Shown here: positions 3,108 through 44,751 of the stretch, piece by piece
Layout: each line of letters begins with the position of its first letter
How positions within the stretch are numbered: position 1 is the stretch's first letter
DNA from: an uncultured Clostridia bacterium
GTDB taxonomy: Bacteria; Bacillota; Clostridia; Oscillospirales; Acutalibacteraceae
NCBI GenBank assembly: GCA_945874765.1
Contig: CAMCHQ010000005.1
Location: forward strand, 62,001-126,000
Reading direction: 5' to 3'
DNA: 64,000 nucleotides
Made by a program: the position numbers and the translations under genes
Notes under the pieces: model-generated
Told to the model about the DNA's origin: nothing
What the model saw: only the letters and a program-made list of their open reading frames with translations
The model's database searches: none

Positions 3108-3150
3108 TATTTAGTTTATTCAATTATTTTGCAGAAAGGGTGTGAGTAAC

Positions 3151-16160: not shown

Positions 16161-17768
16161 ATGAAAAAGAAAACATTTAATTCCCTTATTATTATTGTTT
16201 CTATTTTGAGTATGCTTTTTATGACAGCAGTATTTTTTACAGACAAAAGTGACGTTTCTATTTTTCAGGAAAGAAATACGACAGGTGAGTCGCAGGAACT
16301 TGATTTAAAAGAAACGGTTGTTAAGGATTCTTCCGCTAAGCAGGGCGTTATCAGGAATTTCAGCTTCACTGTCAAAGACGCCGAAAAAGAAGAAAACTTA
16401 ATGTTTTATGTGGTTCACAGTAATGTAAGGGTTTATATTGATAAAAAACTTGTGTATTCCAACGAGGCTAAAAGCAATGCAAAGCTTTCTTCATCGCCCG
16501 GTTGCTTTTGGACAAAAATTGCTTTCGAGCCTGATGATACGGGTAAAACTGTTTTAATTCAGATTGAACCCGTTTATAAAAATATGATTCATAGAGTTAT
16601 AAATTTCTATGAGGGCAAGCAGTACAGTGTATTTCTTCTTACTCTTCAAAGAGAATTATTGCCTATGGTTTTGGGCTTTACTTTGATGATTCTCGGTATT
16701 ATATATTTCGTTGTATCTGTTTACTATAAGGCTGAAAACAGAAATGCCACTAATTTTGTTTACCTCGGCTTGCTGGCGCTTTTGGTCGGCATTTGGAAGG
16801 TATTTGATACTCGGTTTATGGCGTGGTTTATTGAGGGAAACGAACGGTATATAGCGATTTTAAGTAATATATCCGTTATCCTCATTCCTATTGCTTTTCA
16901 GCTTCATATTATTTCAAATTACGAAAAGGACGATAAATTTAAGCGCTTTATGATAGGCTCTGCAACGGCGGATATGATTATCGCTTTGTGTGCTTATGCG
17001 CTTGATATTTTAAAGATATTCGATATAAGGCAGTTTACGGATTATTATTTGTACTATATGGCTGTTCTTATCTTTATTCTTTTGGTATTTCAAATTTTCA
17101 GGCTCAGCAGGGAAAAGAAGAATTTTGATAATGTGTTTATCGTAGCTTCCGTTATTATTTTGCTCATTTGCTCGCTTGTTGATATTGTATTTTTCTTTAA
17201 TAAAAACAGAGTATCAAGTCCTAATTCCATTATGATAGGCACGCTCATTTACGTTTCCGTTTATGCGCTTATCACTTTGAAAGATATGCACGATACTTAC
17301 AGCAGGGACAGGGCAACGGGACTTTATAACAGGAACAAATGTAACGAAATAATAAGATATGCAAACGATATTAAGTCAACCGTAATAATGTTTGACGTTA
17401 ATAATCTTAAATATATAAACGATACGTTCGGTCACGAAGCCGGCGACACTGTTTTGAAAGCTTTTGCCGATGTTATGAGAAGTTGTATTCCGGCAGGTAA
17501 TTTCCTTGGCAGAAGCGGCGGTGATGAGTTTTTGGCTATTATTCATAATAATGACGAAAACCGAATTAAAGCGATAATTGACGATATTAATTATCAAATT
17601 AATGAGTATAACAAGCATAGCGGCAATGAATATAAATTAAGCGTTGCAAGCGGATATGCTCTTTCCGATGAAACAGACAGTAAGACTTACCGTGAAATGA
17701 ACAGGCTTGCAGATAAGAGAATGTACGAAAATAAACGTAATATGAAAGAACGTATAAATTACAGGTAA
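16161..17768 (+). CDS. Membrane diguanylate cyclase (7TM sensor plus GGDEF)
   Basis: A 535-residue protein. An N-terminal helix (about 7-27) is followed by an extracytoplasmic beta-rich domain (about 30-160), seven or so membrane helices (about 165-370) in the 7TMR-DISM arrangement, and a C-terminal GGDEF domain (about 380-530). The active-site loop reads GRSGGDEF (GGDEF from residue 453) and the domain starts with RDRATGLYNR, so synthesis of c-di-GMP from two GTP is expected. The product-inhibition I-site (RxxD five residues before GGDEF) is not conserved; PAGN stands there. The ligand sensed is unknown. It lies 15 bases upstream of a broken YdcF-like gene. Confidence 0.9.
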   Translation: MKKKTFNSLIIIVSILSMLFMTAVFFTDKSDVSIFQERNTTGESQELDLKETVVKDSSAKQGVIRNFSFTVKDAEKEENLMFYVVHSNVRVYIDKKLVYSNEAKSNAKLSSSPGCFWTKIAFEPDDTGKTVLIQIEPVYKNMIHRVINFYEGKQYSVFLLTLQRELLPMVLGFTLMILGIIYFVVSVYYKAENRNATNFVYLGLLALLVGIWKVFDTRFMAWFIEGNERYIAILSNISVILIPIAFQLHIISNYEKDDKFKRFMIGSATADMIIALCAYALDILKIFDIRQFTDYYLYYMAVLIFILLVFQIFRLSREKKNFDNVFIVASVIILLICSLVDIVFFFNKNRVSSPNSIMIGTLIYVSVYALITLKDMHDTYSRDRATGLYNRNKCNEIIRYANDIKSTVIMFDVNNLKYINDTFGHEAGDTVLKAFADVMRSCIPAGNFLGRSGGDEFLAIIHNNDENRIKAIIDDINYQINEYNKHSGNEYKLSVASGYALSDETDSKTYREMNRLADKRMYENKRNMKERINYR

Positions 17769-29837: not shown

Positions 29838-29866
29838 TTGACAAATCGCACTTATGTTGATATAAT
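29838..29866 (+). promoter_or_regulatory. Consensus promoter for the first c-di-GMP riboswitch
   Basis: TTGACA (29838-29843), 17 bases, TATAAT (29861-29866): a perfect vegetative promoter. The gene-free stretch 29755-30057 holds this promoter, the riboswitch and its terminator; nothing else was seen there. Confidence 0.92.
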
Positions 29867-29895
29867 TAAGGAGCAATGAGGAGTTGCGAAGTTAA

Positions 29896-29973
29896 TATTT
29901 GGCAAATCGTCGGAAACGGCGGGACGCAAAGTTATGAGCCTAAGGTTTTTTACTATGGTTGTCAAACCGCAGA
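29896..29973 (+). ncRNA. c-di-GMP-I (GEMM) riboswitch
   Basis: The conserved core is present: GGCAAA, then CGTCGGAAACGGCG (a stem capped by a GAAA tetraloop), GGGACGCAAAG, GAGCCTA, and CTATGGTTGTC (the tetraloop-receptor strand). This is the GEMM-I layout that binds c-di-GMP. The 3' end runs into a terminator hairpin whose 5' arm (AAACCGCA) would be competed for by aptamer closing pairs such as TTGCG (29884-29888), suggesting control of termination. The direction of switching is not certain. Confidence 0.92.
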
Positions 29974-30005
29974 TTGTAAAGTCTTTTTCAATTTGCGGTT
30001 TTTTT
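29964..30005 (+). terminator. Terminator of the first c-di-GMP riboswitch
   Basis: AAACCGCAGATTG (29964-29976) pairs with CAATTTGCGGTTT (29989-30001), with one G-U pair, followed by T residues: the expression platform of the riboswitch. Confidence 0.88.
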
Positions 30006-30057
30006 ATTTGTTTAATATTTTTGATAATAAATAATGAATGTGAAGGAGAGATTATTT

Positions 30058-31206
30058 ATGAAAAAGATTAAAGCTATTTCACTTGCACTTGCAGTAATGA
30101 TGCTTATGACTTGTTTCCCATTCAGCGCTTTTGCTGCTGAGGAAAAGCAAACTGTTGAAGCTGTTTACTACATTTTGAAGGAAGGCTTACCTGTTCCTGC
30201 AGGCATCGCAAGCCAGCCTACTGCAAACTATTCAAAGGCAGGCACCGGCAAAATCACAATAACAAAAGGTTACAAGGGCGAATACAATGAAGACGGTGTA
30301 ACCAACATTGTTGAAGCTCCTGAGGTTAAGCTTGATAAAGGTCAGTCAATCGTTTGGTATGTAACTAAGGTTGAGGGCGACGGCTGGCACGTTGACGGCG
30401 TTGTTACTCCGTTTTACAGCTTCCTTTATGACGGCAACGGCGCAAGCGGTTCAACAACAGACCCTACTCATTATTTTGAAAAGGATACCGCTAAGGTTGC
30501 TGAAAACAAGTTTACCAAGGAAGGCTACACTTTCAAGTCATGGAACACTAAGGCAGACGGCACAGGCACAACATATATGCCCGGTGACAAGATTAAGGTT
30601 AAAGACCTTGGCTTCCCTAAGGGTATCAATACTTTAACTCTTTATGCTATTTTTAAGAAGAATGCAGCTACAGATTATCAGTATAAGACTCTTAAGATTG
30701 TAACTCCTAAGAAAATGTCTGTTCGTTTTGAGGACGGCAAGATTTATAAAAACGGCGATTCACTCACAATTGCAATCGGCAAGGAATATAAATTCCAGAT
30801 GTGCTCAAACGATTGGGATACAGATACTTACACCGATGACGGTCACGGTATCGCAGGTACAGTTGTTTATACTGTAATGGTTTCTAAGAGCAATACTGAG
30901 AGAAGCTACAGCGCTTCATCACACAAGTTCATTCTTCCTAAGAGTGACCCGGTTCTCAGAACCGACGTAAACAATTGCTTTATGGCTTACAAATTCCACT
31001 TCAAGACAGATTACAACAAGCAAACAGGTATTGCTCAGGTTGTAAATACTCCGCTTGAAAGCCTTTCTGTAAACCTTCCTCTCGGCTCAACAATCGCAGC
31101 AGACGCTTACATTGCAAAGAAGTTTAAGAAGACAGACTTCGTATTTGTTGAGAAAGATGAAAACCATCCTAAGGAATCTTACAAAACATACAACTGGGGC
31201 TTCTAA
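30058..31206 (+). CDS. Secreted protein with an InlB/Listeria-Bacteroides repeat, under c-di-GMP riboswitch control
   Basis: About 382 residues. MKKIKAISLALAVMMLMTCF followed by FSAFAAEE is a classic signal peptide with Ala-X-Ala cleavage. Residues about 130-210 form an InlB B-repeat (Flg_new) with SFLYDGNGASGST, FTKEGYTFKSWNTKADGTG and LTLYAIF. The rest is beta-rich with no recognised enzyme motif or cell-wall sorting signal. AAGGAGAG stands upstream of the ATG at 30058; an in-frame start at 30034 would put extra charged residues before the signal peptide. Codon use (many AAG, GCT, AAC) looks more biased than in neighbours, hinting at high expression. A c-di-GMP-controlled surface or matrix protein is likely; the ligand is unknown. 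Confidence 0.82.
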   Translation: MKKIKAISLALAVMMLMTCFPFSAFAAEEKQTVEAVYYILKEGLPVPAGIASQPTANYSKAGTGKITITKGYKGEYNEDGVTNIVEAPEVKLDKGQSIVWYVTKVEGDGWHVDGVVTPFYSFLYDGNGASGSTTDPTHYFEKDTAKVAENKFTKEGYTFKSWNTKADGTGTTYMPGDKIKVKDLGFPKGINTLTLYAIFKKNAATDYQYKTLKIVTPKKMSVRFEDGKIYKNGDSLTIAIGKEYKFQMCSNDWDTDTYTDDGHGIAGTVVYTVMVSKSNTERSYSASSHKFILPKSDPVLRTDVNNCFMAYKFHFKTDYNKQTGIAQVVNTPLESLSVNLPLGSTIAADAYIAKKFKKTDFVFVEKDENHPKESYKTYNWGF

Positions 31207-31210
31207 TTGA

Positions 31211-31288
31211 ATAGGCAAATTGTCGGAAACGGCAAGACGCAAAGTTATGAGCCTACGGCAAATTAAGCTATGGCAGTCAGACCGCAAG
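31211..31288 (+). ncRNA. Second c-di-GMP-I (GEMM) riboswitch
   Basis: It starts about five bases after the stop of the InlB-repeat protein gene: AGGCAAA, TTGTCGGAAACGGCAA (stem with GAAA tetraloop), GACGCAAAG, GAGCCTACGG, GCTATGGCAGTC, leading into a strong terminator. Sequence and layout closely match the first copy 1.3 kb upstream. With no promoter directly in front, it probably acts on transcripts reading through from the upstream gene. Confidence 0.9.
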
Positions 31289-31310
31289 ATTATTTCTTGC
31301 GGTCTTTTTC
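31279..31310 (+). terminator. Terminator of the second c-di-GMP riboswitch
   Basis: AGACCGCAAGA (31279-31289) and TCTTGCGGTCT (31295-31305) form a perfect 11-bp stem followed by TTTTC. Confidence 0.92.
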
Positions 31311-31312
31311 TA

Positions 31313-31341
31313 TTGTAATTTATAATTAAATATATTATAAT
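31313..31341 (+). promoter_or_regulatory. Possible promoter for the polysaccharide operon
   Basis: TTGTAA (31313-31318), 17 bases, TATAAT (31336-31341), located after the second riboswitch terminator. If real, the downstream operon has an entry point that escapes the riboswitch. The region is very AT-rich, so chance matches are likely. Confidence 0.5.
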
Positions 31342-31392: not shown

Positions 31393-32034
31393 ATGAAAAA
31401 AATTTTGTCTTTAGCCTTAGTGCTTGTTCTTTCTTTAACAGTGTTTACGGCTTGCTCGAATACCGACCCGAATGTAAAACAAACTACCTCTTCTCAGTCT
31501 GACGGATATGAGGTTAATACAGATGAGGATACTTCGGAAAGTACAACCAAAGATGACGGCGTGGTTAATGCCGATTATTATGCTAACAGAAGTTATGAAC
31601 TTCGCTTCCTTTTTGCGGTTGATTCGTTTGATAAACCGTCGGATATTTCAACAAGCGTTCTTGTTCAGTATGCTTTTTGTCGCCTTTATTATGATAATCT
31701 TACCGATATGCCACGTAAGGGCGTTAAAATGCGTGAGGCAACTCAAAAGCAAATCACTGACCAAATTCAAAAGGAGTTCGGCAAAGTGAACGTTGATGTT
31801 ACAAAGTCGGATTTATATAATCATGATAAGAAAAAGTTTGAAATGTGGGAGCCTCTTTACGGCAGTGACATTTATTTCAACGCTAAAAGCGAAAAAGTCA
31901 GCGACAGCGAATATAAAGTAACCTCAACTTTTTATAACGATGAGGCTAAAACGGAAGTTAAAGGTACAACTGTTATGACCGTCAGCGTTTCAAAAGACGG
32001 CAAACAGTATATTAAAAAGCTTTCTTCAAAATAA
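31393..32034 (+). CDS. Lipoprotein, first gene of the polysaccharide operon
   Basis: A 213-residue lipoprotein: MKKILSLALVLVLSLTVFTA ends in a lipobox with Cys at about residue 21, followed by a Ser/Thr/Asp-rich linker (22-55). The remaining mixed alpha/beta part (about 58-213; NRSYELRFLFAVDSFD, SDSEYKVTSTFYNDEAK) has no family I recognise; it resembles NTF2/SnoaL-like lipoproteins in size only. AAGGAGAG precedes the ATG. It is followed two bases later by a small gene, so it belongs to the operon with the glycosyltransferase. The function is unknown. Confidence 0.75.
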   Translation: MKKILSLALVLVLSLTVFTACSNTDPNVKQTTSSQSDGYEVNTDEDTSESTTKDDGVVNADYYANRSYELRFLFAVDSFDKPSDISTSVLVQYAFCRLYYDNLTDMPRKGVKMREATQKQITDQIQKEFGKVNVDVTKSDLYNHDKKKFEMWEPLYGSDIYFNAKSEKVSDSEYKVTSTFYNDEAKTEVKGTTVMTVSVSKDGKQYIKKLSSK

Positions 32035-32050
32035 GGTGAACGGTGATTTT

Positions 32051-32266
32051 ATGAACGAAAATGATTTGCTCAATGAACTTAACAACGAAAAATATATCAA
32101 TTCTCAGCTTATTTCGATTATAAACGATATTGAAACCAAATATAACGAAATCGGCAGCTTGATTGATGAATTTCATTTACTGCTCGGCGATGATGCAGAC
32201 GCTACTGTTGATAACGGCGAACAGGTTAAAAATTTGCTCAACAAATATTCTCAACTCAAAAAATGA
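32051..32266 (+). CDS. Small coiled-coil protein, unknown function
   Basis: About 71 residues, all helical and acidic (NENDLLNELNNEKYINSQLI, then a short loop and EQVKNLLNKYSQLKK). No membrane segment and no family recognised. Starts considered: ATG at 32051 behind GGTGA, or an in-frame GTG at 32036 just after the lipoprotein stop. It lies between the lipoprotein and the HD-GYP gene with an eight-base gap to the latter, so it is probably translated as part of the operon. It may be an adaptor; that is a guess. Confidence 0.6.
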   Translation: MNENDLLNELNNEKYINSQLISIINDIETKYNEIGSLIDEFHLLLGDDADATVDNGEQVKNLLNKYSQLKK

Positions 32267-32274
32267 GGTAAAAT

Positions 32275-34512
32275 ATGAAATCGACTTTTCAAAAAATCAA
32301 AGGTAAATTAAAAAAATATTTTTCAGGCGTACGTTTGAATTTAACTATTTTCACTGCGCTTGCCGTTGCTATGATTTTGCTTTCTTTTGCAATTCAGTAT
32401 GCCGGAAATTATGTTTTGAGCCTTAAAGAAGAGGTTAGAAACGTTCAGTCTTGGGATTATACGTATATTTCATCTCCTGACGCTTCGGTTGACGGCACTA
32501 AACTTACCCCGTCTAACTACGTTGTACCTATTTCAAGTAAGGGTAATACCGGCTACTGCTACCTTACCCATACCTTTGATAAGATTAACGAAAAAACATA
32601 TTTGAAGATTATTACAGACCATTCACCCGTTAAAATTATAGTTAACGGTCAGGAGGTTTATAATAATCACTACGGCAGTGAGCAGTATGTTGCAAACAGC
32701 TACAACCTTGTAACGCTTAATAAAACCACCCGTTCTCAAAAGGTTGAAGTTTATATGGCTGTGCCTTTCTCCGTTACATTTAATGTTCAAATGTCAAACA
32801 CACAGCCGTCTGACTTCACGTTTACTCCGGCATTTTTTGCAGGCGTTGGAGTTGCTGCTGTCGGCATTATTATGTTCTTGATATCTCTTGTTTTTTCAAT
32901 TAAAAATAAGCATTTGTCAAAACTTGTGTTTGTAGCGTTTTTTGATGTATTCAGCGGCGCTGATATTGTCCTTTGGCAGTTCTTGCAAAATTCATATAAA
33001 TTGAATGCACCGATTTATTATAATATTTCCCTTGCCGTATCGCTTCTCGTAATGCTTTGGGCAAGCGTGAGCGCTATGTCAAATTTCGGTATGCTCTCAA
33101 AATCCTGCAAGTTTACCCTTGCTTTGAGCGTTATATTCCTTGCGTGCTCGGCAATACCTAATATTCCGGCTGTACTTCGTATAGTCCCCGTTGCCGTATC
33201 GGCAATGCTCTTTATCTCTCTTATTTTGTCGCAGTCATCATTTATTAAGGCGATAGGCAGGAGACTTAAAGGTGCAAGCTCGGTTTGGTTTTTGGGCTGC
33301 TACGTTGTCTTGACCGATTTTATTCTCGTGCTTCAGCTTTTCCTCGGCAAAACAAAATACTATGTTGTTTTCAGCGTGCTTACCTCAATTGTTTACACTA
33401 TCGTTATGACGATTGTTAAGTATGACGAATCTTCTAAGAAATTCACGGAGAATAAAAAGCAAAAGGAACAGTTTATTGATTCTCTTGCGTGGGTTGATTC
33501 GCTTGATTCAATGATGAAAAAGGTGAACGCCGCTTTTGACGATGAGGAAAAACTCATAACTGCCGCACAGGAATTTAAAAAGATTATTAATGAGCGTATC
33601 CCGAGTGAAAACGGTCTGACAATCGGCGTCTGTCAGCTCGGCGACGACGGTAATTTTTATGAGATATATAACGACAATCTTGATGAGCCTTGCAATTACA
33701 ATATGATTGACGAGAGATTTTTGAACAGTTCTCAAACTCACCACGTTTTGTGGGGAAATACATATTTTGACGTAATTATCGATAAAAACGCTAAACCGTA
33801 TGCAATTCTTCATTTCGAGGGTGCGGATAATTTGCTTTCGCTTAATATTAATAATATTGTTGAAACTATCAGCGCCGATTTGGACGTTTCGCTTAATATA
33901 ACAGATGATGAAATTGCCAACGAGGAATTTGAGGCAGGTATTTTTGCTCAGCTTTCTCAAACCGTTGAAATTAAAAACGGCGTCGGCAAAAATCATCTTG
34001 AAAATGTTTCAAATATCACTTTCTGCCTTTGTGCTCAGCTTGGGCTGAGTGAGGACGAAATAAGGCAAATCGGATATGCTTCAATGCTTCACGATATCGG
34101 TAAAATTGTTATCCCTGAAGAAATTATTAAAAAGCAGGGATATCTTACCGAGGATGAAAAAAATCTTATGCGTTTTCACGCTGAGGCGGGATATAAACTT
34201 CTTTCCTGTATTCCGGGTGAATTTATGTCACTTGCGGCTGAAATCGCATATTATCACCACGAAAAATATGACGGCACCGGCTACTACGGCAAAAAGGGTG
34301 AGGATATTCCTCTTAGTGCAAGAATTGTATCTGTTGCCGACGTGTTTGACGCTCTTACTTCTTCCCGTTCATATAAAACGGCGTGGACTGACGAGCGTGC
34401 AATAGAATATCTTAAAGAAAACAGCGGCACTTCGTTTGACGAAAATGTTGTAAATGCTTTTCTCGATTGCTACCAAACTATTTGTGAATTCAGAAAAGGC
34501 GGTGATTATTAA
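32275..34512 (+). CDS. Membrane HD-GYP protein (c-di-GMP phosphodiesterase-like)
   Basis: A 745-residue protein with an N-terminal helix (about 21-41), an extracytoplasmic domain (about 45-180), a set of about seven membrane helices (185-380) and a C-terminal HD-GYP domain (about 560-740). The metal motif ASMLHDIGK (His606-Asp607) and HHEKYDGTGY are kept, with DVFDAL downstream. The eponymous GYP is GYY (669-671), so catalysis or partner binding may differ from standard HD-GYP enzymes. Being inside the glycosyltransferase operon, it may tune local c-di-GMP or act as a c-di-GMP-dependent switch. Its stop overlaps the next ATG by one base. Confidence 0.87.
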   Translation: MKSTFQKIKGKLKKYFSGVRLNLTIFTALAVAMILLSFAIQYAGNYVLSLKEEVRNVQSWDYTYISSPDASVDGTKLTPSNYVVPISSKGNTGYCYLTHTFDKINEKTYLKIITDHSPVKIIVNGQEVYNNHYGSEQYVANSYNLVTLNKTTRSQKVEVYMAVPFSVTFNVQMSNTQPSDFTFTPAFFAGVGVAAVGIIMFLISLVFSIKNKHLSKLVFVAFFDVFSGADIVLWQFLQNSYKLNAPIYYNISLAVSLLVMLWASVSAMSNFGMLSKSCKFTLALSVIFLACSAIPNIPAVLRIVPVAVSAMLFISLILSQSSFIKAIGRRLKGASSVWFLGCYVVLTDFILVLQLFLGKTKYYVVFSVLTSIVYTIVMTIVKYDESSKKFTENKKQKEQFIDSLAWVDSLDSMMKKVNAAFDDEEKLITAAQEFKKIINERIPSENGLTIGVCQLGDDGNFYEIYNDNLDEPCNYNMIDERFLNSSQTHHVLWGNTYFDVIIDKNAKPYAILHFEGADNLLSLNINNIVETISADLDVSLNITDDEIANEEFEAGIFAQLSQTVEIKNGVGKNHLENVSNITFCLCAQLGLSEDEIRQIGYASMLHDIGKIVIPEEIIKKQGYLTEDEKNLMRFHAEAGYKLLSCIPGEFMSLAAEIAYYHHEKYDGTGYYGKKGEDIPLSARIVSVADVFDALTSSRSYKTAWTDERAIEYLKENSGTSFDENVVNAFLDCYQTICEFRKGGDY

Positions 34513-37500
34513 TGGCAGACGATAATTTTGACGAATTTGATTTTGACGATTTAGACGGCGTTGATAATCTTGATGATGTTTCATTAGACGATACCTTTGA
34601 TAATACCGATTTGGGCAATAATGCCGATGCTCAAAGCGAGCAGGAGAGCGCCGACAGTTCTTCAAAAACTTCAGATGAAAACAGCGACGGCAACTCCACA
34701 GCCTTTGACGATTTAAAAAACGATAATACATATGTTGCCCCGAAAGATGAGAACACTTTTGACGCAGATACTCTTGACGAGGTAACCGATGAAAAACTCA
34801 AGAAGCAAAAAAAGCATAAAAAGGCAAAATGGTGGTGGATTATTCCGCTTGTCCTTTTGGTAATTGTTGCCGTTGCTTTTGTCGGCTGGCAGATTAAACC
34901 AAAGACTAAGCTTAACGTTTGTGTTCTTGATAAAACCGTTCTTGTCGCAAGCGATGATAATGATGTTGATAAAAATTTGGCATACAGAAAGCACCAAGGT
35001 CTTTTTTGGCTTTTGGAGCAAAAGAAAATCGTTTTCCAAAACGGCAAGTATTACGATTATAAAAAAGATTATTTCGGTCAGCAGCTTAAAGATGACGGTA
35101 CCGTTGATAAGGAAAAATCGCTTACTACTCTTGATTACGTACCCGATTTAATGTATATTTCCGACGTCTACGGCGCAACTAACGATACTTACGGCTATTT
35201 TAATAAAAACGAGGCTTCGGGTAACGGCTTTAACAGTGACGATATGTCCGTTGTGTCCTATGCTTATGAAAACAACGCTACGGTTGTCGGCGAAATGGAA
35301 CTTTTTAATTCTAATATGAGCGCCTCCGTTAAATCTCAGCTTGAATCTCTTTTCGGTATGAGTGAAAGCGGCTGGGTAGGCAGATATATTTATGAGCTTC
35401 AGGATTTTACCGACGTTCCCGATTGGGCGCCTCCTCTTTATGAACAGCAAGAGGGTGTTGAGTGGCAGTTCTCGGGTCCCGGCATACTCCTTGTTTCTAA
35501 CGAGGGCAAAATAATCGTTTTGGAGCAAAAGACGGATTTCAATTCAAAAAATCTTCTTCAAATTTCAATTAACGATAAATATAAAAAAGAATTTAAGGGC
35601 GCTAAAAAGTGCAATTTCTATAATTGGTTCGAACTTATCGACGCCAACAGCTCAACCGAGGCGATTGCCACCTTTGAATTTGACGTAAATGCAACGGGTA
35701 TGGAAAAAATCAAGGATATTTCAAGTCAGCCACGCTTTGTTGCGATTACACGTAAAAAGCAGGAAAATAAACCGTACGCTTACTATTTTGCAGGCGATTT
35801 TAACGATTATGTCAGCAAGAGGAATTTTAACAGATTTCTCGGTGCGGATAAGGTTTATAAAATGCTTTCATACGATAATCAGGGTGATATAAGCTATTTT
35901 TATTGGAATTTCTATAATCCTTTTATGTCTAAGATTTTAAAGGACGTTGAAAAGGAAAACGGCGCACGTCATAAGGGTAAAAATGAGGACAGCAAAAGCA
36001 CAACCGCCTCATCCCGTATCAATAATGACAAAATAGAAGTTCAAATTGACGGCAAATGGCAGGAAATTTATCTTAAAGCGCTTAGCCTTAATGCGTATAA
36101 ACCGGGTGAGAAAAAATATACGAGAGATTATACCTATTATGAATCGCTTGTAAGTGAACTTGTTTCTCTCGGCGCTAACTGCATAAGGGCAAAGGACGTT
36201 ATGCCGGCAGAATTTTACCGTGCAATTTATCAAAATAATAAAAATAAGGACAGTTCGACTGTTTATCTTATCCAAAGCATTACCGCACCCGATGATTTGT
36301 CGGCAAGCGATTATTTGAGCAATGACGGTCTTGTAAAATGGAAAGAAAAACTTGAGGCTGCCGTTTGTGCCGTTCACGGTGACGGAAGCTTAAAATCAAG
36401 CAATAATCTTGACGCAACGTCATATTTCAACGATGTATCGCCTTATCTTATTGCTTATGTTATTGAGCCGGATATCAATGAAAAAAATGCCGAGCTTATT
36501 TTAAATTCCAACCCGACATTTACCTACAGCGGCAAATACTTTGCATCAAGTGATACCGTTTCGTCGCTTTGTGCCGAGCTTGCGGATATCGTTCAAACTA
36601 AAAACAACGATACATACGGCTATAAAGTGCCGGTGGGTATTAACGTTGACGCAAATACTCTTTCTTCTTTCAAATATTCAAAAGGCAAGGTTAAATATGA
36701 TTTGTCAAATATCGTTTTAAACGGTGATGATAAGCAGTATTTCTTTGTAAGCGTTGACGGTGCTCTTTCAAGTTCTGCATTCAAGTCAAACAGTAAGCAT
36801 TACGGCGGTAACGATTACGGCACTTCTTTTGAAAAGTATTTAAAGGATGTTAAAGCGTCTGTTAATTTACCGCTTCTTGTAAACGGAATCTGCGTGCCAA
36901 CCAATACCGGCTCTTCAACTAAAGAGGCGCAGCAGGCTGAAAAACTTATTTCGGCTCTTAATTCAATTGATGCGTCGGGTGCAATGGGCGGTGTAATCAA
37001 TGACCTTAACGATAACTGGTCGGCGGTTTCAAGCAAGATGTATCCGTTTACCGTTCCTCTTTCAAATAACTATTTGTGGCACGATGTAGCCGATTCTGCG
37101 CAAACGACGGGTGTTGTGGCTGTTGAATCTCCTACTCCTACAGTGTCAAATATGGAATATTTTGATGATGACAGAATGCAGGGTATGTCCGTATCCGCTA
37201 ACGAAAGCTACCTTTATATCAATCTTCGTCTTTTAGAGGATATTGATTATTCCAAGGAAGAATTTTTCGTCGGAATTGATACATATCAGCGAAACGACGG
37301 CGATTACTATTATTCAAAAGATTATACTCCTACTTCTCTTTCGGGTATGGAATTTGTAATCAGGTTTAAGGGTAAGCAAAACGCAGGTCTTTATGTAATC
37401 AATTCATATGATAAAAACAAGGGACACTACGCTTCAAAGGAAAGCTATTCGGGTAAATATAATCTTGTGTCAAAGCTTAATTACGGCGGTTTCAGAAGCG

Positions 37501-37826
37501 GTGACAATCAGTTCTACACCACGGGTACAACTACTTATATTCGTATTCCTTGGGCTATGCTCAACATTACCGACCCGTCGCAAAAGGTTGTTATCAATAA
37601 CGACGGTAAGCTTAAAAATCAGGTTAAAACCACTCAAACAAACGGCTTCTTAATTTCACTTATCATTGCCGATAAATCAACTAAGGACCTTCTTTATATG
37701 TTCCCTGAATCGAAGAAGGACCCGGGATACAAAACGTTCAAATGGTCAACTTGGGAAGAAGTTACGTTTGAATACAGAGAGAAGGACGGCTTCTCAACAC
37801 TTAAAAAATATTATTCTACTAAATGA
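34512..37826 (+). CDS. Large membrane-anchored protein with a degenerate glycoside-hydrolase-like and a CBM9-like domain
   Basis: A 1,104-residue protein. An Asp/Glu-rich cytoplasmic tail (1-95) and a basic patch precede one membrane helix (about 106-127). An unrecognised extracellular domain (about 130-480) follows. Residues about 500-800 align with the two later GH-like proteins of the operon (IDGKWQEIYLKALSLNAYKP; AEFYRAIYQ; YVIEPD; LLVNGICVPTNTG). A C-terminal CBM9-like beta-sandwich (about 880-1,100) carries SYLYINLRLL and TYIRIPWAMLNITDP. Where the relatives have LVAEFG or LIAEYG with the presumed nucleophile Glu, this protein has LVNGIC, so it is probably a non-catalytic binding or scaffold version. 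It overlaps the next gene by four bases. Confidence 0.72.
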   Translation: MADDNFDEFDFDDLDGVDNLDDVSLDDTFDNTDLGNNADAQSEQESADSSSKTSDENSDGNSTAFDDLKNDNTYVAPKDENTFDADTLDEVTDEKLKKQKKHKKAKWWWIIPLVLLVIVAVAFVGWQIKPKTKLNVCVLDKTVLVASDDNDVDKNLAYRKHQGLFWLLEQKKIVFQNGKYYDYKKDYFGQQLKDDGTVDKEKSLTTLDYVPDLMYISDVYGATNDTYGYFNKNEASGNGFNSDDMSVVSYAYENNATVVGEMELFNSNMSASVKSQLESLFGMSESGWVGRYIYELQDFTDVPDWAPPLYEQQEGVEWQFSGPGILLVSNEGKIIVLEQKTDFNSKNLLQISINDKYKKEFKGAKKCNFYNWFELIDANSSTEAIATFEFDVNATGMEKIKDISSQPRFVAITRKKQENKPYAYYFAGDFNDYVSKRNFNRFLGADKVYKMLSYDNQGDISYFYWNFYNPFMSKILKDVEKENGARHKGKNEDSKSTTASSRINNDKIEVQIDGKWQEIYLKALSLNAYKPGEKKYTRDYTYYESLVSELVSLGANCIRAKDVMPAEFYRAIYQNNKNKDSSTVYLIQSITAPDDLSASDYLSNDGLVKWKEKLEAAVCAVHGDGSLKSSNNLDATSYFNDVSPYLIAYVIEPDINEKNAELILNSNPTFTYSGKYFASSDTVSSLCAELADIVQTKNNDTYGYKVPVGINVDANTLSSFKYSKGKVKYDLSNIVLNGDDKQYFFVSVDGALSSSAFKSNSKHYGGNDYGTSFEKYLKDVKASVNLPLLVNGICVPTNTGSSTKEAQQAEKLISALNSIDASGAMGGVINDLNDNWSAVSSKMYPFTVPLSNNYLWHDVADSAQTTGVVAVESPTPTVSNMEYFDDDRMQGMSVSANESYLYINLRLLEDIDYSKEEFFVGIDTYQRNDGDYYYSKDYTPTSLSGMEFVIRFKGKQNAGLYVINSYDKNKGHYASKESYSGKYNLVSKLNYGGFRSGDNQFYTTGTTTYIRIPWAMLNITDPSQKVVINNDGKLKNQVKTTQTNGFLISLIIADKSTKDLLYMFPESKKDPGYKTFKWSTWEEVTFEYREKDGFSTLKKYYSTK

Positions 37827-38923
37827 CAGGCGGTGAGGTTTTGACATATGAACTTTTTGCCATAATAGGCATAATAGTTTGCGTATTTATACTCGCACTT
37901 GAATATCTTTGGCTTTATGTTCTTGCGGTTAGGCAGGAAAACAGTACAAAAAAATATACTTCAGCCGAGAAAAAGAGCAAGCAAATAGTTGACGCTATTA
38001 TGTATAGCCCCACCACTCGTGCAAGAAAAAACGAAATCGACTCTCTGCAAAAGCTTGCAAAAGACGATTGCAAAATTCTTGATATGATTTATGACTTTGT
38101 AAATGAGTGGAAGTCTAAAAACGACGGCGAATTTTACAAAGAGCACAGCGATGTATTTCAGGAAATCGACGAAGCGCTGAAGCCGATACAGGTTTATGCC
38201 GAAATTCTTAAATCGGGCAAAATTCACGATAAGTGCTACGCTTGCAGACGTCTTGCCGATTTTAACGCAGTTGATTATATCAACGATATAGGCAAACTTT
38301 GTGAGGATAAAAACCGTGCGCTTGCATATAATGCGGCAATGGCTCTCTCCGCTTTCGGCGATACTCAAAGGCTTGCAAAATATATTGTCAGCATTGAAAA
38401 CGATAAAAAGTATTCGACGAGAGTTGTGTTTGAGCTTGTATCTTCTTTTACCGGGGATTTGACAGACCTTGTTTTGTTGATACTTAAAAATTGCAACGAG
38501 GAAATGAAAGCTACTATCATTACCGCCGTTACACCTTACGGTTTGAGCGATTTTGCAGATATTTATATTGCAGGCACTAAGAGTACAAACGATAATATGA
38601 AAATTGCCTGCGTCAAAGCGCTCGGCGGTCTTAAAAATCTTGAATATGAGCACGATTTGATTGTCGCTTCTAAGGATAAAAACTGGGTTGTTCGTATTTC
38701 CGCAATCAAAGGTCTTTCGTATTTTCAAACCAATGAGGCTATTGAGGTTGTTAAGACTGCTACAAAAGATAAAGAATGGTGGGTCAGACAGGTTGCCGCC
38801 TCCGCACTTATCAATATGTCGGTTAAGATTAAAGATATTGATGAGATTATGAAAGGCTATGACAGGTACGCAGCCGACGCCGTTAAAAATTCACTTTACA
38901 GAGAAATTGATATAAGGGAGTAA
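37823..38923 (+). CDS. Membrane-anchored HEAT-repeat protein
   Basis: A 366-residue protein with one N-terminal membrane helix (about 11-35) and a long alpha-helical cytoplasmic part. Its second half contains HEAT/PBS-lyase-like repeats, such as CKILDMIYDFVNEWKS, VRISAIKGLSYFQTNEAIEV and VRQVAASALINMS. Such repeats bind proteins; the likely partner is the glycosyltransferase encoded seven bases downstream. The ATG at 37823 overlaps the previous stop (ATGA). A TTG at 37841, behind AGGCGGTGAGG, is a possible alternative start. Confidence 0.75.
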   Translation: MTGGEVLTYELFAIIGIIVCVFILALEYLWLYVLAVRQENSTKKYTSAEKKSKQIVDAIMYSPTTRARKNEIDSLQKLAKDDCKILDMIYDFVNEWKSKNDGEFYKEHSDVFQEIDEALKPIQVYAEILKSGKIHDKCYACRRLADFNAVDYINDIGKLCEDKNRALAYNAAMALSAFGDTQRLAKYIVSIENDKKYSTRVVFELVSSFTGDLTDLVLLILKNCNEEMKATIITAVTPYGLSDFADIYIAGTKSTNDNMKIACVKALGGLKNLEYEHDLIVASKDKNWVVRISAIKGLSYFQTNEAIEVVKTATKDKEWWVRQVAASALINMSVKIKDIDEIMKGYDRYAADAVKNSLYREIDIRE

Positions 38924-38929
38924 ACGTCA

Positions 38930-40342
38930 ATGGATATAATGGGTTATATAAGAACATTCATATCGTTTTTTAACTATTTCTGTATGGCTTTTACTGTTCT
39001 TTTGAGTGTTATTTACATAGTTCAAATGATTATGTCCTTTGTCAAGGTTCGTAAGGACTCCAAAGCACTTATGTCAAATGACTATGAAAGATATATGTAT
39101 AGTGACAATCTCCTGCCGATTTCTCTTCTCATTCCTGCCTATAATGAGGAGGAAAACGTAGTTCAAAACATTAAATCTCTTATGAAAATGGATTATCCCA
39201 ATTTTGAGATTATTGTTGTAAACGACGGCTCAACGGATAAAACTCACGAAAAAATTGTTGAGGCTTTCGGCCTTTATCAAATCGAAAGTTCTCAAAAGGT
39301 TTCTATCCCGACAAAAGAGGTTAGGGGAGTTTACTATAACGTTGATTATCCCAATTTGCTTTATATCGATAAGGAAAACGGCGGTAAATCCGACGCTTTA
39401 AATGCAGGTATCAACGCTTCCTCTTATCCGCTTTTTGCCTGCCTTGACGCCGATTCACGTCTTGAAAAAGACGCTTTATTGAAACTTTCAATCGAATTTA
39501 ATAAAGATAAAAATACTATCGTTGCCGGCGGTATCGTTCGTATTGCCAACGGCTCCGTTATTCGTGACGGCGAATTTAAGGGCTTTTCAATGCCTAAAAA
39601 AATTATTGAGCGTTTCCAAATAGTTGAATATTACCGTTCTTTCCTCTCGGGAAGAGTAAGCTGGGGTCTTTCTAACTCAATGCTTATCGTGTCCGGTGCG
39701 TTCGGCGTCTTTCAAAAGCAGGCTGTTATCGAGGTCGGCGGATATAAGACAAACACTATCGGTGAAGATATGGAAATTGTTGTAAGGCTTCACAGTTATA
39801 TGAGGAAAAACAAACGTAAATATAAGATTATTTTTTGCGAGGACGCTGTTTGCTGGACGCAGGGACCTATGTCGCTTAAAGATATAAGAGGTCAGCGCAG
39901 AAGATGGCAAATCGGTCTTTTGGATACGCTTATTTCTCATAAAAATTTGCTTTTTAATCCTCGTTACGGTATGGTCGGTATGGTCGCCGTTCCGTATAAC
40001 TGGATGTTTGAACTTTTGGGCGCTGTAATTGAGGTGCTTGGATATTTCATCATTCCGTTTTCTCTTATAATGGGGGAACTGAATGTGTTCTTCTTTGTAA
40101 TATATTTCCTGCTCGCCACACTTTTGGGTATTATGCTTTCAATCGGCAGCCTTATTCTTGAACAATATACTAAAAAGTCGGCTATGACCGCAAAGCAGTA
40201 TATCCTTATTTCTGTTTATGCCATTCTTGAAAACTTTGGCTATAGGCAGCTCATAACCCTGTTTCGTGTCGAGGGTATTTTTAAATACAGAAAACTTCGT
40301 CAAACTTGGGGTAAGATTGAGAGAAAGGAGTTTGATCAGTAA
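38930..40342 (+). CDS. Processive family 2 glycosyltransferase (polysaccharide synthase)
   Basis: A 470-residue membrane GT2 enzyme. An N-terminal helix (about 14-36) leads to the catalytic domain with SLLIPAYNEEENV, VVNDGSTDKT (Asp99), CLDADSR (Asp173 and Asp175), IGEDME (Glu279-Asp280, the base) and GQRRRWQIG (Gln322-Trp326). C-terminal membrane helices (about 355-440) follow. D, DxD, ED and QxxRW together mark processive beta-glycan synthases such as cellulose, hyaluronan or poly-GlcNAc synthases. No PilZ domain is present, unlike BcsA. The polymer made is unknown. AGGGAG precedes the ATG; its stop overlaps the next ATG by one base. Confidence 0.9.
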   Translation: MDIMGYIRTFISFFNYFCMAFTVLLSVIYIVQMIMSFVKVRKDSKALMSNDYERYMYSDNLLPISLLIPAYNEEENVVQNIKSLMKMDYPNFEIIVVNDGSTDKTHEKIVEAFGLYQIESSQKVSIPTKEVRGVYYNVDYPNLLYIDKENGGKSDALNAGINASSYPLFACLDADSRLEKDALLKLSIEFNKDKNTIVAGGIVRIANGSVIRDGEFKGFSMPKKIIERFQIVEYYRSFLSGRVSWGLSNSMLIVSGAFGVFQKQAVIEVGGYKTNTIGEDMEIVVRLHSYMRKNKRKYKIIFCEDAVCWTQGPMSLKDIRGQRRRWQIGLLDTLISHKNLLFNPRYGMVGMVAVPYNWMFELLGAVIEVLGYFIIPFSLIMGELNVFFFVIYFLLATLLGIMLSIGSLILEQYTKKSAMTAKQYILISVYAILENFGYRQLITLFRVEGIFKYRKLRQTWGKIERKEFDQ

Positions 40343-42573
40343 TGAAAAAATACGTAATTCCTGTTATCGCAACTTTTTTGGTTTTCGTTATTCTTGCACA
40401 AACGGGGCTTCTTCAGCCTTTCGGTATTCACGGAATAACAAATCTTTTTAATAAAGATTCAAAGCAAAGCGAAAGCTCAAATTCACAGGAAGTATCTACT
40501 GACGACGCCGGTATTTCCTCTCGTTTTAAAACCTCGGGTGATTATTTTGAAGTGTATAAAAACGGCGATTGGCATAAAGTTTTTTGGACAGGCGTTAATA
40601 TTGGCGCAGGTGAGCCGGGCATTTTCCCGGGTGAACTTACAATCAGCTATGATACCTATTACCGTTGGTTTAAATATATAAGCGAGATGAATTGTAATTC
40701 AATTCGTGTCTATACAACAATGCGCCCGCAGTTTTATAATGCTTTGGCAGATTTTAATAAGCAGGCTGATAATCCTCTTTATCTTTTCCAAGGCGTTTGG
40801 GTTAATGAGGAAGATATTGAACGTCTTTCCGACGTTTATGCCGAAAACGGTAAAATCTTAGAAGGCTTTATTGATGACGCAACCACACTTGTTGATGTTA
40901 TTCACGGCAATGCCACAATTGAGGAAAAAGCAGGTAAAGCGTCGGGTACATATACAGCCGATGTTTCGCATTGGTTTGCAGGTTGGATTTTGGGTATTGA
41001 GTGGGACCCGAACCTTGTTGTAAACACCAATACCCAGCACCCCGATAAAGCATCTTATGACGGAACTTATCTTTACACTCAGGCGGCAACTCCGTTTGAA
41101 GCGTTTTTGTGTCAGGTCGGCGACGAGGTTATTAAGCACGAAACAGAGAAATATAAATTCCAAACTACCGTTGCTTTTTCAAACTGGATAACTACCGACC
41201 CGCTTACTCACCCTAACGAACCGCACGAGGATGAGGATAAAACAAGCGTTAATGTTGAAAATATAAAATCACGTGACACATATAAACCGGGTATGTTTGC
41301 TTCTTACCATATTTATCCTTATTATCCCGACAGTCTTAATTATCAGGAAGATTATCTTAAAAATTATGACGAAAACGGTAATGTCGATACATATGACGCT
41401 TATCTTAAAGATTTAAAACTTGCACATACTATGCCTATTTTGGTTGCCGAATTCGGTGTGCCTACTTCCCGTGGATTGGGGCATAAAAGCGTAATGAATT
41501 ACGACCAGGGCAGAATAGACGAAACAAAGCAGGGCGAAATACTGTCAAAACTGTTTGACGATATTTATAAAGAAAAATATGCAGGCGGTATCGTCTTTAC
41601 CTGGCAGGACGAATGGTTTAAGCGAACGTGGAATAATGTTATGTTTGATATTGCCGACAGACGTCCGTTTTGGTCGAATATTCAAACTACTGAGCAGTGT
41701 TTCGGTCTTTTGGCGTTTGACCCGGGTGAAAGTGAAAGCGTTTGCTATGTTGACGGCGATGTGTCGGAATGGGCAGGGGAAAAACCTGTCGTGACAAATG
41801 ATTACGGTAAAGTTTACGTTAAAAGTGATGAGCGATACCTTTATTTAATGATTGACACGGATACGAAAAAGTACGATTTTAATACAGATACCATTTATAT
41901 CCCTATCGACACAATTGCAAAGCAGGGCAACACCTCGGCGTCAGCGTATAATTTGACGTTTAATAAGGGTGCGGATTTTCTTATTATGATTAACGGCGCT
42001 AAAAATTCGCATATTTATGTTGACAGATATTATGACGCTTTCTATTATTACTTCATTAAATCACGTATGCTTTCCGATATCCCTGTTGATAAGGATTCGG
42101 ATAAGAAAAACAGCGGTGTGTTTAATCAAATGAGAATGTGCTACGGTTATCATCTTACCGTTCCGGGCACTAATGAAGAGGTAAGCGATAAAGTTTATGA
42201 AACAGGCAAGCTTCAATACGGCAACGGCAATCCCGATTCCAAGGATTATACTTCGCTTACTGACTTTAGCTATAAAAACGGCAAGGTTGAGATTAGAATT
42301 CCTTGGCAGCTTTTGAACGTTATGGACCCGTCATCTAAAAAACAAATGGATAACTTCTATGAAACCCAGACAATCACACCTAAGGATTTCGAAAGTTTCT
42401 CGTTTGGTATGGGTATTCAAAAAAGTGACGATACTTCTAAAATGAATATCGATATTGACGGCGAATACGATTATGACGGCTGGAACACTCCTACCTATCA
42501 CGAAAGATTAAAACCGGGATATTACACTCTTCAAAAGTATCTTAAAAAATATAAGAAAATCAATAATAAATAA
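40342..42573 (+). CDS. Extracellular glycoside-hydrolase-like protein with a CBM9-like domain
   Basis: A 743-residue protein with an N-terminal membrane helix or signal (about 4-22), a Ser-rich linker, and a TIM-barrel-like domain (about 55-440). Motifs: VFWTGVNIGAGEPG, NSIRVYTTMRPQFYNAL, WILGIEWDPN (Glu220, candidate acid/base), YHIYPYYPD, and ILVAEFGVPTSRG (Glu370, candidate nucleophile), GIVFTWQDEWFKRTWN. These resemble clan A hydrolases (GH5/GH2-like). A C-terminal CBM9-like domain (about 475-735) begins YVDGDVSEW. It probably trims, releases or binds the polymer made by the adjacent synthase. The exact GH family is not assigned. Confidence 0.8.
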   Translation: MKKYVIPVIATFLVFVILAQTGLLQPFGIHGITNLFNKDSKQSESSNSQEVSTDDAGISSRFKTSGDYFEVYKNGDWHKVFWTGVNIGAGEPGIFPGELTISYDTYYRWFKYISEMNCNSIRVYTTMRPQFYNALADFNKQADNPLYLFQGVWVNEEDIERLSDVYAENGKILEGFIDDATTLVDVIHGNATIEEKAGKASGTYTADVSHWFAGWILGIEWDPNLVVNTNTQHPDKASYDGTYLYTQAATPFEAFLCQVGDEVIKHETEKYKFQTTVAFSNWITTDPLTHPNEPHEDEDKTSVNVENIKSRDTYKPGMFASYHIYPYYPDSLNYQEDYLKNYDENGNVDTYDAYLKDLKLAHTMPILVAEFGVPTSRGLGHKSVMNYDQGRIDETKQGEILSKLFDDIYKEKYAGGIVFTWQDEWFKRTWNNVMFDIADRRPFWSNIQTTEQCFGLLAFDPGESESVCYVDGDVSEWAGEKPVVTNDYGKVYVKSDERYLYLMIDTDTKKYDFNTDTIYIPIDTIAKQGNTSASAYNLTFNKGADFLIMINGAKNSHIYVDRYYDAFYYYFIKSRMLSDIPVDKDSDKKNSGVFNQMRMCYGYHLTVPGTNEEVSDKVYETGKLQYGNGNPDSKDYTSLTDFSYKNGKVEIRIPWQLLNVMDPSSKKQMDNFYETQTITPKDFESFSFGMGIQKSDDTSKMNIDIDGEYDYDGWNTPTYHERLKPGYYTLQKYLKKYKKINNK

Positions 42574-42582
42574 GGAAAATTT

Positions 42583-44751
42583 ATGAAAAAACTACTATGT
42601 GTTCTATTTTCTCTTCTTATGGCTTTGTCATTTGTGTCTTGCTCAAACGGAGATAATATTGACCCCAATAAGCACCAAATTGATTTGAGCGCATATAAAT
42701 ATCCTACTCCCCAAAAAAGCGTTGATATGATTGATACAAAAAAAGTAAACGTTTCATATATTGCTTCGTCTAACGGCTATTTCTATCAAAATAAAAACGG
42801 TAAAAGTGCCGATTTGCTTTATATCAAGGGCGTAAATATGGGCCTTACCGAGGCGCAGACTTCGCTTGATAACAGTAATATTTCATATGACACCTTTATG
42901 AATTGGTTTGAAGAAATTAAGGATATGAACGCCAATACCGTTCGTGTATTTTCAATAATGAATCCTAATTTCTATAAGGCGCTTTATGATTTTAATAAGA
43001 AAAATTCATCCTCTCCGCTTTATTTGATTCAGGGCATTTGGTTTAGTGAGGACTTGATGTATCAACTTACCGACGCACTTGAAAGCGACGAAATTATTAT
43101 ATCGGCATTTAAAAAAGCGTGTAAGGAAACGGTAGATATCATTCACGGCAACAGCAGTGATACCGTTTACGGTGAGTTTTCTCCGGCAATATATGATAAA
43201 GACGTTTCAAAATATACCGTCGGATATATTTTAGGTCTTGAATATCCTGCCGACTTTGTTATTGAAACTAACGCTTCTCACCCCGATAAGGCAAATTATA
43301 AGGGTAAGTATCTTGAAACAAAAAGCGGTTCGACTCCTTTTGAGGCTTTTCTTGCAAATGTCGGCGATTATCTTGTTGATTGTGAAACAAGCGCTTATAA
43401 CAGCCAAACTCCTGTCGCTTTTCTCAATTGGCAGGTGCTTGATACTATTACTCATACCAATGAGCCGTATAAAGAGGAAAATGACGCAGTAAGCGTTAAT
43501 ACCGAAAACATAACGGCTAAGTCAAATTATTATCCGGGGCTTTTTGCCGCAGTCGATGTTTATCCTTATTATCCCGAATTTATGAATTATGAGGAAAAAT
43601 ATACTTCATATACAGATGAAAAAGGGGAAAAGGATAATTACCGTGCGTATCTCAATGATTTGAAAACGCAATATTCAGTTCCGCTTTTGATTGCCGAATA
43701 CGGTCTTTCCACCTCTCGTGGCAAGGCTCATTTAGGCTTAAACGGCTATGACCAAGGCGGTCTTAATGAAGATGAACAGGCAAAACTCGTTTCTAAAATG
43801 ACTAACGATATTGCACTTGAGGGCTGTGCGGGCGGTCTTGTTTTTGAATGGGCTGACGAATGGTTTAAAAGCACGTGGAATATTAATATGTATTACCCCG
43901 ACGACCCGACTAAGCGCACGCAAAATCTTTCCTCTGCAGAGCAGAGCTACGGCATTTTGTGGTATGATACTTCCACCTCTTACCCCGATGGCGATTTGAG
44001 TGAGTGGAAAAATGCTTATAAGGTAAACGATAACCTTAAAGTTATGTATGACGCAAATTATATGCATCTTCTTCTAACTCTTCCCGACGGCTTTGATACA
44101 TCAAAGGATACGTTCTTCGTTCCTATATCGACAAACGGCACGGGCAGTAAGTTTTCTAAGAAATATAACCTTAAATTCAGCGATAATACAGACTTTTTGC
44201 TTGTCTTTAACGGAAAGGACAATACACGTATTCTTTGCGATAAAGCGCAGGACGTATTTCATTATAAGTTCGGTGTTATTCGTAAGGTTTTCGGTACTTC
44301 TCAGTCAAAGGCTTATAAGCAAAATACAGGTGAGTATGACAAGATTAATACCTTTGTGTCAAATGAGATAATAGTTCCGTCAACCAATGAGAGAATTGAG
44401 CCAAGATATTATGAGGGTGGTCTTTTGAAATTCGGCAATGCCAACCCCGATAGCTCGGACTATGACAGTAGTGCGGATTTTTATTATAACGGCAATACTG
44501 TTGAAATTCGCATTGCTTGGTATCTTCTCAATGTTATGAACCCTACAACTAAGGCTTGTATCAATACACCGTTTAAGGGCGACGAAATTACATATTCAAA
44601 TTTTGGCGCTATCAAAATAGGTTCAGGTACAGAGGGTAAAATCAAACTCAATGACGCAAAGTTTACCGGAGTGAAAAACGTCAAACTTACTCAAAGGCTT
44701 AAAAAAGTTTACTATTCGCTTCAGGATTTGTATCCGCAAATTAATTTGTAA
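42583..44751 (+). CDS. Lipoprotein glycoside-hydrolase-like paralogue with a CBM9-like domain
   Basis: A 722-residue lipoprotein (MKKLLCVLFSLLMALSFVSC, lipidated Cys at about residue 20) that is clearly paralogous to the preceding protein. It has YIKGVNMGLTEAQ, NTVRVFSIMNPNFYKALYDF, YILGLEYPADFV (Glu220), VDVYPYYPEFMNYE, LLIAEYGLSTSRGKAH (Glu372) and GLVFEWADEWFKSTWN, followed by a CBM9-like domain starting YPDGDLSEW. Both presumed catalytic Glu residues are kept. It is the last gene of the operon and is followed by a strong terminator. Attachment to the outer face of the membrane places it where the polymer emerges; this role is inferred. Confidence 0.8.
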   Translation: MKKLLCVLFSLLMALSFVSCSNGDNIDPNKHQIDLSAYKYPTPQKSVDMIDTKKVNVSYIASSNGYFYQNKNGKSADLLYIKGVNMGLTEAQTSLDNSNISYDTFMNWFEEIKDMNANTVRVFSIMNPNFYKALYDFNKKNSSSPLYLIQGIWFSEDLMYQLTDALESDEIIISAFKKACKETVDIIHGNSSDTVYGEFSPAIYDKDVSKYTVGYILGLEYPADFVIETNASHPDKANYKGKYLETKSGSTPFEAFLANVGDYLVDCETSAYNSQTPVAFLNWQVLDTITHTNEPYKEENDAVSVNTENITAKSNYYPGLFAAVDVYPYYPEFMNYEEKYTSYTDEKGEKDNYRAYLNDLKTQYSVPLLIAEYGLSTSRGKAHLGLNGYDQGGLNEDEQAKLVSKMTNDIALEGCAGGLVFEWADEWFKSTWNINMYYPDDPTKRTQNLSSAEQSYGILWYDTSTSYPDGDLSEWKNAYKVNDNLKVMYDANYMHLLLTLPDGFDTSKDTFFVPISTNGTGSKFSKKYNLKFSDNTDFLLVFNGKDNTRILCDKAQDVFHYKFGVIRKVFGTSQSKAYKQNTGEYDKINTFVSNEIIVPSTNERIEPRYYEGGLLKFGNANPDSSDYDSSADFYYNGNTVEIRIAWYLLNVMNPTTKACINTPFKGDEITYSNFGAIKIGSGTEGKIKLNDAKFTGVKNVKLTQRLKKVYYSLQDLYPQINL

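Follow-up and report, generated by a model that had tools for sequence, protein, structure and literature searches.

The 64,000-nucleotide stretch of DNA analysed here (the window) comes from an uncultured Clostridia bacterium of the Acutalibacteraceae (assembly GCA_945874765.1, contig CAMCHQ010000005.1, positions 62,001 to 126,000) and carries, at 31393-44751, an operon centred on a family 2 glycosyltransferase (GT2), a HEAT-repeat protein and three paralogous glycoside hydrolase (GH)-like proteins. With a probability of about three in four, the sequence evidence identifies this operon as a synthase-dependent exopolysaccharide (EPS) machine, activated by cyclic diguanosine monophosphate (c-di-GMP) and distinct from the cellulose, poly-N-acetylglucosamine (PNAG) and Pel types tested. 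A preliminary description of the same DNA had placed the eight tightly packed plus-strand open reading frames (ORFs) as they are found here and had deduced c-di-GMP control from an HD-GYP gene alone. It overlooked two riboswitches upstream, which are the strongest evidence for such control and now support it both here and in relatives.

Both riboswitches score above the gathering cut-off of the c-di-GMP-I covariance model RF01051 (Table 1), and each aptamer is followed by a hairpin and a T-run. As the 5′ arm of each terminator uses the P3 strand of the aptamer, the bound aptamer and the terminator are mutually exclusive and ON switching is predicted. Aptamer 1 lies 25 bases downstream of a promoter matching the consensus at 12/12 positions, a score that none of 200 shuffled versions of the 78 nt upstream attains. 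Aptamer 2 starts within the final codons of the gene for a secreted repeat protein, likely a surface adhesin, and no good promoter was found for it, the best in the 78 nt upstream scoring 7/12 and being equalled in 149 of 200 shuffles. From this difference we infer the order promoter, first gate, repeat protein, second gate, operon; the unit should be extended upstream to about 29838, to include the promoter, both riboswitches and the secreted-protein gene. A genome-wide RF01051 search, in which 150 of 294 first-look candidates were scored in a draft genome that is 99% complete, gave no third site.

Related loci show a comparable arrangement. Eighty loci were compared, these being the best of 503 by similarity and therefore leaning toward close relatives; a lipoprotein homologue is detectable by BLAST in 29 of them. 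In 23 of these 29 the operon is preceded by a repeat-protein gene, and in six a riboswitch lies at most 700 nt before the lipoprotein gene; one of these six (L032) has the repeat-protein gene too. Whole genomes were searched for 20 of the 23 + 6 Ruminococcaceae-type loci, all with the repeat protein upstream and picked for the upstream contig remaining. In 19 of them a c-di-GMP-I riboswitch was found, which precedes the repeat-protein gene on the operon contig in 15 and lies elsewhere in four; the remaining genome has none. In one of the four off-contig cases (G453; L135, G453:C2:51000-53500), a riboswitch and ON-type terminator directly precede another GH-family gene, 37.9% identical to gh1 of the window, which links switch and GH once more. 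When operon-side sites, including one of two at L124, were tested for overlap of the terminator with the P3 strand, 21 of 22 passed, against a mean of 3.4 and a maximum of 7 with the downstream part shuffled. In contrast to aptamer 2, a promoter score of 10/12 or more is reached at 13 of the 22 sites examined in relatives.

The identities of the HD-GYP, HEAT and GT2 proteins given in the preliminary description are confirmed by Pfam. By inspection, the GT2 contains the motifs DADS, GEDME and QRRRW, and it has no PilZ match; the D, ED and QxRW columns are invariant in the GT2 alignment (A5). A natural HEAT-GT2 fusion has hyaluronan and cellulose synthases as its best fold matches. Motifs (D, DxD, ED and QxxRW) and fold together thus agree with the processive membrane GT2 that characterises synthase-dependent EPS systems, as had been proposed. 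The GT2 falls below the NCBIfam cut-offs of all named synthases matched: 136.1 bits against an equivalog cut-off of 422.3 for the PNAG synthase PgaC_IcaA, 125 against 364 for TIGR03111 (XrtG-associated GT2), 49 against 699.1 for the cellulose synthase CelA, with PilZ lacking, and 30 against 550 for NodC. No polysaccharide deacetylase (PgaB/IcaB) was matched by Pfam in the seven operon proteins scanned (the 76-aa protein was left out), and gh1, gh2 and the anchored copy gave no Pfam match to GH8 (BcsZ) or GH5 (CcsZ). Both the width of these margins and the lack of Pfam matches to a deacetylase, GH8, GH5 or PilZ in the operon argue against the foremost alternative, in which a known system with swapped accessory proteins makes a known polymer, whether a PNAG-like GlcNAc polymer, a hyaluronan-like heteropolymer or cellulose; this is a serious possibility, though one to which we give well below even odds.

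The core of the operon is widely conserved. A GT2 of at least 200 bits is present in 75 of the 80 loci, and in 73 it is accompanied by HEAT, either in the locus or in a fusion of HEAT-GT2 size; the GT2 is missing in L049, L060, L069, L078 and L085, some of which are on short contigs. In a sample of 398 Bacillota genomes, the GH family occurs in 23, own genome included. Twenty of the 22 others were taken with their flanks, G381 and G430 being left out as partial matches, and GT2 and HEAT lie beside the GH gene in 12 of the 20. The refuting condition set in the preliminary description, a lack of joint conservation, therefore fails, although the GH occurs without GT2 or HEAT nearby in the other eight. 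In addition, HEAT is fused to GT2 in L040, L042, L048 and L070 (undetected by hidden Markov model in the last three, where it rests on ORF length, alignment to L040, itself at only 30 bits, and the L040 model), GH to HEAT in L142, and HEAT, GT2 and the N-domain of the anchored protein in L139, whilst N-domain-GH fusions occur in Bacilli. These fusions tie four domain types (GT2, HEAT, N-domain and GH) into one apparatus. Sequence comparison thus indicates that many Gram-positive bacteria, Clostridia and Bacilli alike, share a core of synthase, HEAT-repeat protein and unclassified glycosidase; the bacillar loci additionally carry response-regulator/GGDEF genes. Among 40 relatives, gh1 has a match in only two, one being the genome itself and the other (G010) having a diverged GH-HEAT-GT2 copy with a GT2 34% identical, a distribution that is no more than suggestive of horizontal transfer within the genus.

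Of the earlier term ‘GH/CBM9-like paralogues’, the three paralogous GH-like proteins stand, whereas the CBM9 likeness is not confirmed: no Pfam carbohydrate-binding module was matched by gh1, gh2 or the anchored copy at E 0.05, or in the two family alignments at E 0.1. Compared with its own genome, gh1 is 41% identical to gh2 and 23% to the anchored protein. In a tree of 34 rows, from which L135 was left out and in which three rows have deviant composition, the gh2 copies and the anchored copies each form one fully supported group, with gh2 arising among the Ruminococcaceae-type gh1 copies. Both predicted catalytic glutamates are present in all 30 gh1/gh2-type rows and in all 15 N-domain-GH fusions. 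Both are lost in all ten Ruminococcaceae-type anchored copies, and a Paenibacillus copy (L051) keeps the second only; the anchored protein, previously called degenerate, is therefore very likely a pseudoenzyme. Neither gh1 nor gh2, nor the GH portion of the anchored protein, has a confident sequence match in Pfam, NCBIfam or PDB (gh2 has a weak lipoprotein-signal match only); in PDB, the GH profiles A1 and A2 drew nothing beyond chance matches (best E 0.23 and 0.25). Weak Pfam matches in members of A1 and A2, to GH113 (4 of 30, best E 0.0019) and singly to GH2_C, GH72 and a lectin, were not used. In a structural model of L088, whose N-domain covers about residues 50-390, E560 follows strand 552-557 and E710 lies in strand 706-711. 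These are counted as strands 4 and 7 of a TIM barrel, the arrangement of clan GH-A, and the fold matches GH157 and GH2. The closest fold is that of the GH157 endo-β-1,3-glucanase LaGH157 (PDB 9g4n, 9fz9, 9g5g), at 15-16% identity and with no sequence match found. Given this nearest fold, the polymer might be a β-1,3-linked glucan or similar, which we consider unlikely. Solitary N-domain-GH genes (L141, L153, L154, L155, L158), with no GT2 or HEAT in the flanks examined, suggest another role for the GH family.

The c-di-GMP complement of the genome is small. Three GGDEF proteins, two of them in the window, and two HD-GYP proteins, both in the window, were found; genome-wide searches of the draft gave no EAL and no PilZ protein, PilZ being positive in five of 14 control genomes and the controls being positive for all four families. 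A search for c-di-GMP-II riboswitches gave no match, but as no control gave a signal either, absence is not established. The HD-GYP protein of the operon has the motif HHEKYDGTGYY, in which the GYP position reads GYY. Among 41 genomes of the genus, riboswitches occur in seven and GGDEF proteins in 14, all seven falling within the 14. Another member, G455 (L164-L166), has nine c-di-GMP-I riboswitches and one GGDEF protein found.

Taken together, these features would fit the following mechanism. A rise in c-di-GMP is predicted to fold both aptamers, which would then retain the P3 strand needed by the terminators and allow read-through first into the secreted repeat protein and then, via the second gate, into the operon. 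The GT2 would polymerise a nucleotide sugar and extrude the chain via its own membrane channel, with the HEAT protein, to judge from the fusions, acting as its cytoplasmic partner or regulator in place of the PilZ domain found elsewhere. Outside the cell, the anchored N-domain/pseudo-GH protein may take up the chain, which gh1 and gh2, having intact catalytic pairs, could cut, trim or transfer. Negative feedback would come from the HD-GYP protein, which, if active, would bring the c-di-GMP level back down.

A different product has also to be considered, namely that no EPS is made and that the GT2 attaches sugar to a polymer of the cell wall or to a protein of the surface, with the GH proteins remodelling the product. 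GT2 enzymes widely do so, and the riboswitch-controlled secreted repeat protein could serve as acceptor; nevertheless, QxxRW and modelled C-terminal membrane helices like those of hyaluronan and cellulose synthases are features of a processive synthase, and no flippase or lipid-carrier transferase was matched by Pfam in the operon, which together make this improbable. Several observations do weigh against a c-di-GMP-activated EPS machine. Eight of the 20 sampled genomes have a GH gene without GT2 or HEAT within about 8.5 kb, so the GH also works elsewhere, and three of the 12 positive genomes (G214, G206, G414) are contigs already among the 80 loci. The HHExxDGxGY motif is missing in the HD-GYP proteins of three of six relatives, leaving feedback by this protein uncertain. 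No riboswitch was detected on the operon contig in five of the 20 genomes tested, and over all 34 sites the ON test was passed by 27, the failures being the Paenibacillus riboswitch at L051 and six others. Finally, a promoter-like 10/12 site at 31313-31341, after terminator 2, could allow riboswitch-independent expression, although such sites are about as frequent as chance would give (55 against an expected 44). OFF switching is common among c-di-GMP-I riboswitches, yet repression of the operon by c-di-GMP is very improbable here, given that the terminator uses the aptamer P3 strand at both sites of the window and at 21 of the 22 tested on the operon side.

The genes are packed with gaps, as called, of 1, 8, -1, -4, 6, -1 and 9 bases; the first gap becomes the earlier value of about 16 if the coiled-coil gene starts at its first ATG instead of the called GTG. 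Elsewhere in the window, the N-terminus of a 2802-aa ORF at 3142-11550 resembles TadE/G (Pfam Tad, 24.4 bits); this ORF is perhaps part of a pilus cluster.

Table 1. Features of the operon, its upstream region and the other c-di-GMP genes of the window.
Feature	Position	Strand	Basis or remark
GGDEF protein, motif GGDEF	16161..17768	+	second of 3 GGDEF proteins of genome
Response regulator-HD-GYP-GGDEF protein	26935..29403	+	one of 3 GGDEF and of 2 HD-GYP proteins of genome
Sigma-A-type promoter, predicted	29838..29866	+	TTGACA-17-TATAAT, TG before -10; 12/12 consensus match only
c-di-GMP-I riboswitch 1	29891..29974	+	RF01051, 61.8 bits (gathering 35), E 1.2e-9; precedes secreted repeat protein
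Terminator 1	29966..29999	+	5′ arm overlaps 3 nt of aptamer P3 3′ strand; predicted ON switch
Secreted protein, Listeria-Bacteroides (Flg_new) repeat	30034..31206	+	PF09479, 28.1 bits, cut-off 27
c-di-GMP-I riboswitch 2	31204..31289	+	RF01051, 65.4 bits (gathering 35), E 1.5e-10; precedes operon
Terminator 2	31279..31305	+	5′ arm overlaps 5 nt of aptamer P3 3′ strand; predicted ON switch
Lipoprotein, predicted	31393..32034	+	lipobox by inspection; single N-terminal hydrophobic stretch
Small coiled-coil-like protein, 76 aa	32036..32266	+	ORF call
Multi-transmembrane (TM) HD-GYP protein; predicted c-di-GMP phosphodiesterase or sensor	32275..34512	+	PF13487, E 2.2e-36
Membrane-anchored protein, N-domain + GH domain without both catalytic glutamates (predicted pseudoenzyme)	34512..37826	+	
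HEAT-repeat protein, one N-terminal TM stretch	37823..38923	+	PF13646, E 2.6e-18
GT2 polysaccharide synthase, predicted, without PilZ	38930..40342	+	PF00535, E 3.4e-25
gh1: TM-anchored GH-A-type glycosidase, predicted catalytic E220 + E370	40342..42573	+	glutamates invariant in 30/30 aligned rows
gh2: lipoprotein, gh1 paralogue, both catalytic glutamates present	42583..44751	+	residue alignment

Paired riboswitches with a gene between them occur in the same genus in G006, G460 and G466 too, around a GGDEF gene. There (L160, L161, L162) the order is riboswitch, GGDEF gene, riboswitch, surface-protein gene, without the GH operon, a layout whose sequence suggests c-di-GMP control over its own cyclase and surface proteins. 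The aptamer at L044:15725-15811 has an A in place of the first G of the GGCAAA found in others; a change near this position presumably marks c-AMP-GMP-type variants. Tandem arrangements of c-di-GMP-I switches are in themselves well documented, according to extracts of PMC9481103. In the Bc3-5 tandem riboswitch of Bacillus thuringiensis (PMC4759541, in extract), ON switching likewise depends on keeping part of P3 from the terminator, but the switches are adjacent in one 5′-untranslated region, whereas here a gene separates them.

Other Gram-positive systems resemble the operon in part, as far as extracts of the cited papers describe them. The ccsZABHI operon of C. difficile (PMC7710045) also combines a GT2 with a glycosidase of GH-A fold and an accessory protein in the membrane, and likewise lacks BcsB/BcsC. 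However, CcsA has PilZ, CcsZ belongs to GH5 and acetylation genes (MBOAT and DHHW) are present, whereas the present operon has no PilZ, GH5 or acetylation genes and instead has HEAT, N-domain proteins and riboswitches. Listeria pssA-E (PMC4125290) is also a c-di-GMP-dependent GT2 EPS operon; there c-di-GMP acts via the degenerate GGDEF receptor PssE, Listeria being without c-di-GMP riboswitches, in contrast to the riboswitch control and lack of a GGDEF gene within the operon described here. Gram-positive Pel (pelDEADAFG; PMC7112168) is a c-di-GMP-regulated, synthase-dependent polymer with another gene set and the receptor PelD. No description of the present gene set was found in literature searches limited to open-access papers; nor is the operon described in the extracts of an Anoxybacillus genome paper (PMC2614493) and a Geobacillus EPS paper (PMC6367360).

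Five synthase-dependent polymers (cellulose, acetylated cellulose, PNAG, alginate and Pel) were counted in 2020 in the part of PMC7112194 available. Tentatively, and at somewhat less than even odds, GT2, HEAT, N-domain and orphan GH may constitute a further secretion class beyond these five, in which HEAT replaces PilZ/BcsB as synthase partner and regulator, guidance of the chain outside falls to a pseudoenzyme GH, and nearly the whole c-di-GMP circuit serves one locus via two serial ON riboswitches, with one gate for the adhesin and two for the operon. A core conserved from Clostridia to Bacilli would lengthen the short list of synthase-dependent matrix polymers by one, and a glycosidase family without a Pfam model would gain a name, with gh1 a candidate enzyme against the matrix polymer of this operon type. 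The few c-di-GMP parts of the genome, together with the location of both detected c-di-GMP-I riboswitches at this locus, would make a compact, natural, single-purpose c-di-GMP circuit, through which the role of c-di-GMP in gut Clostridia becomes directly testable.
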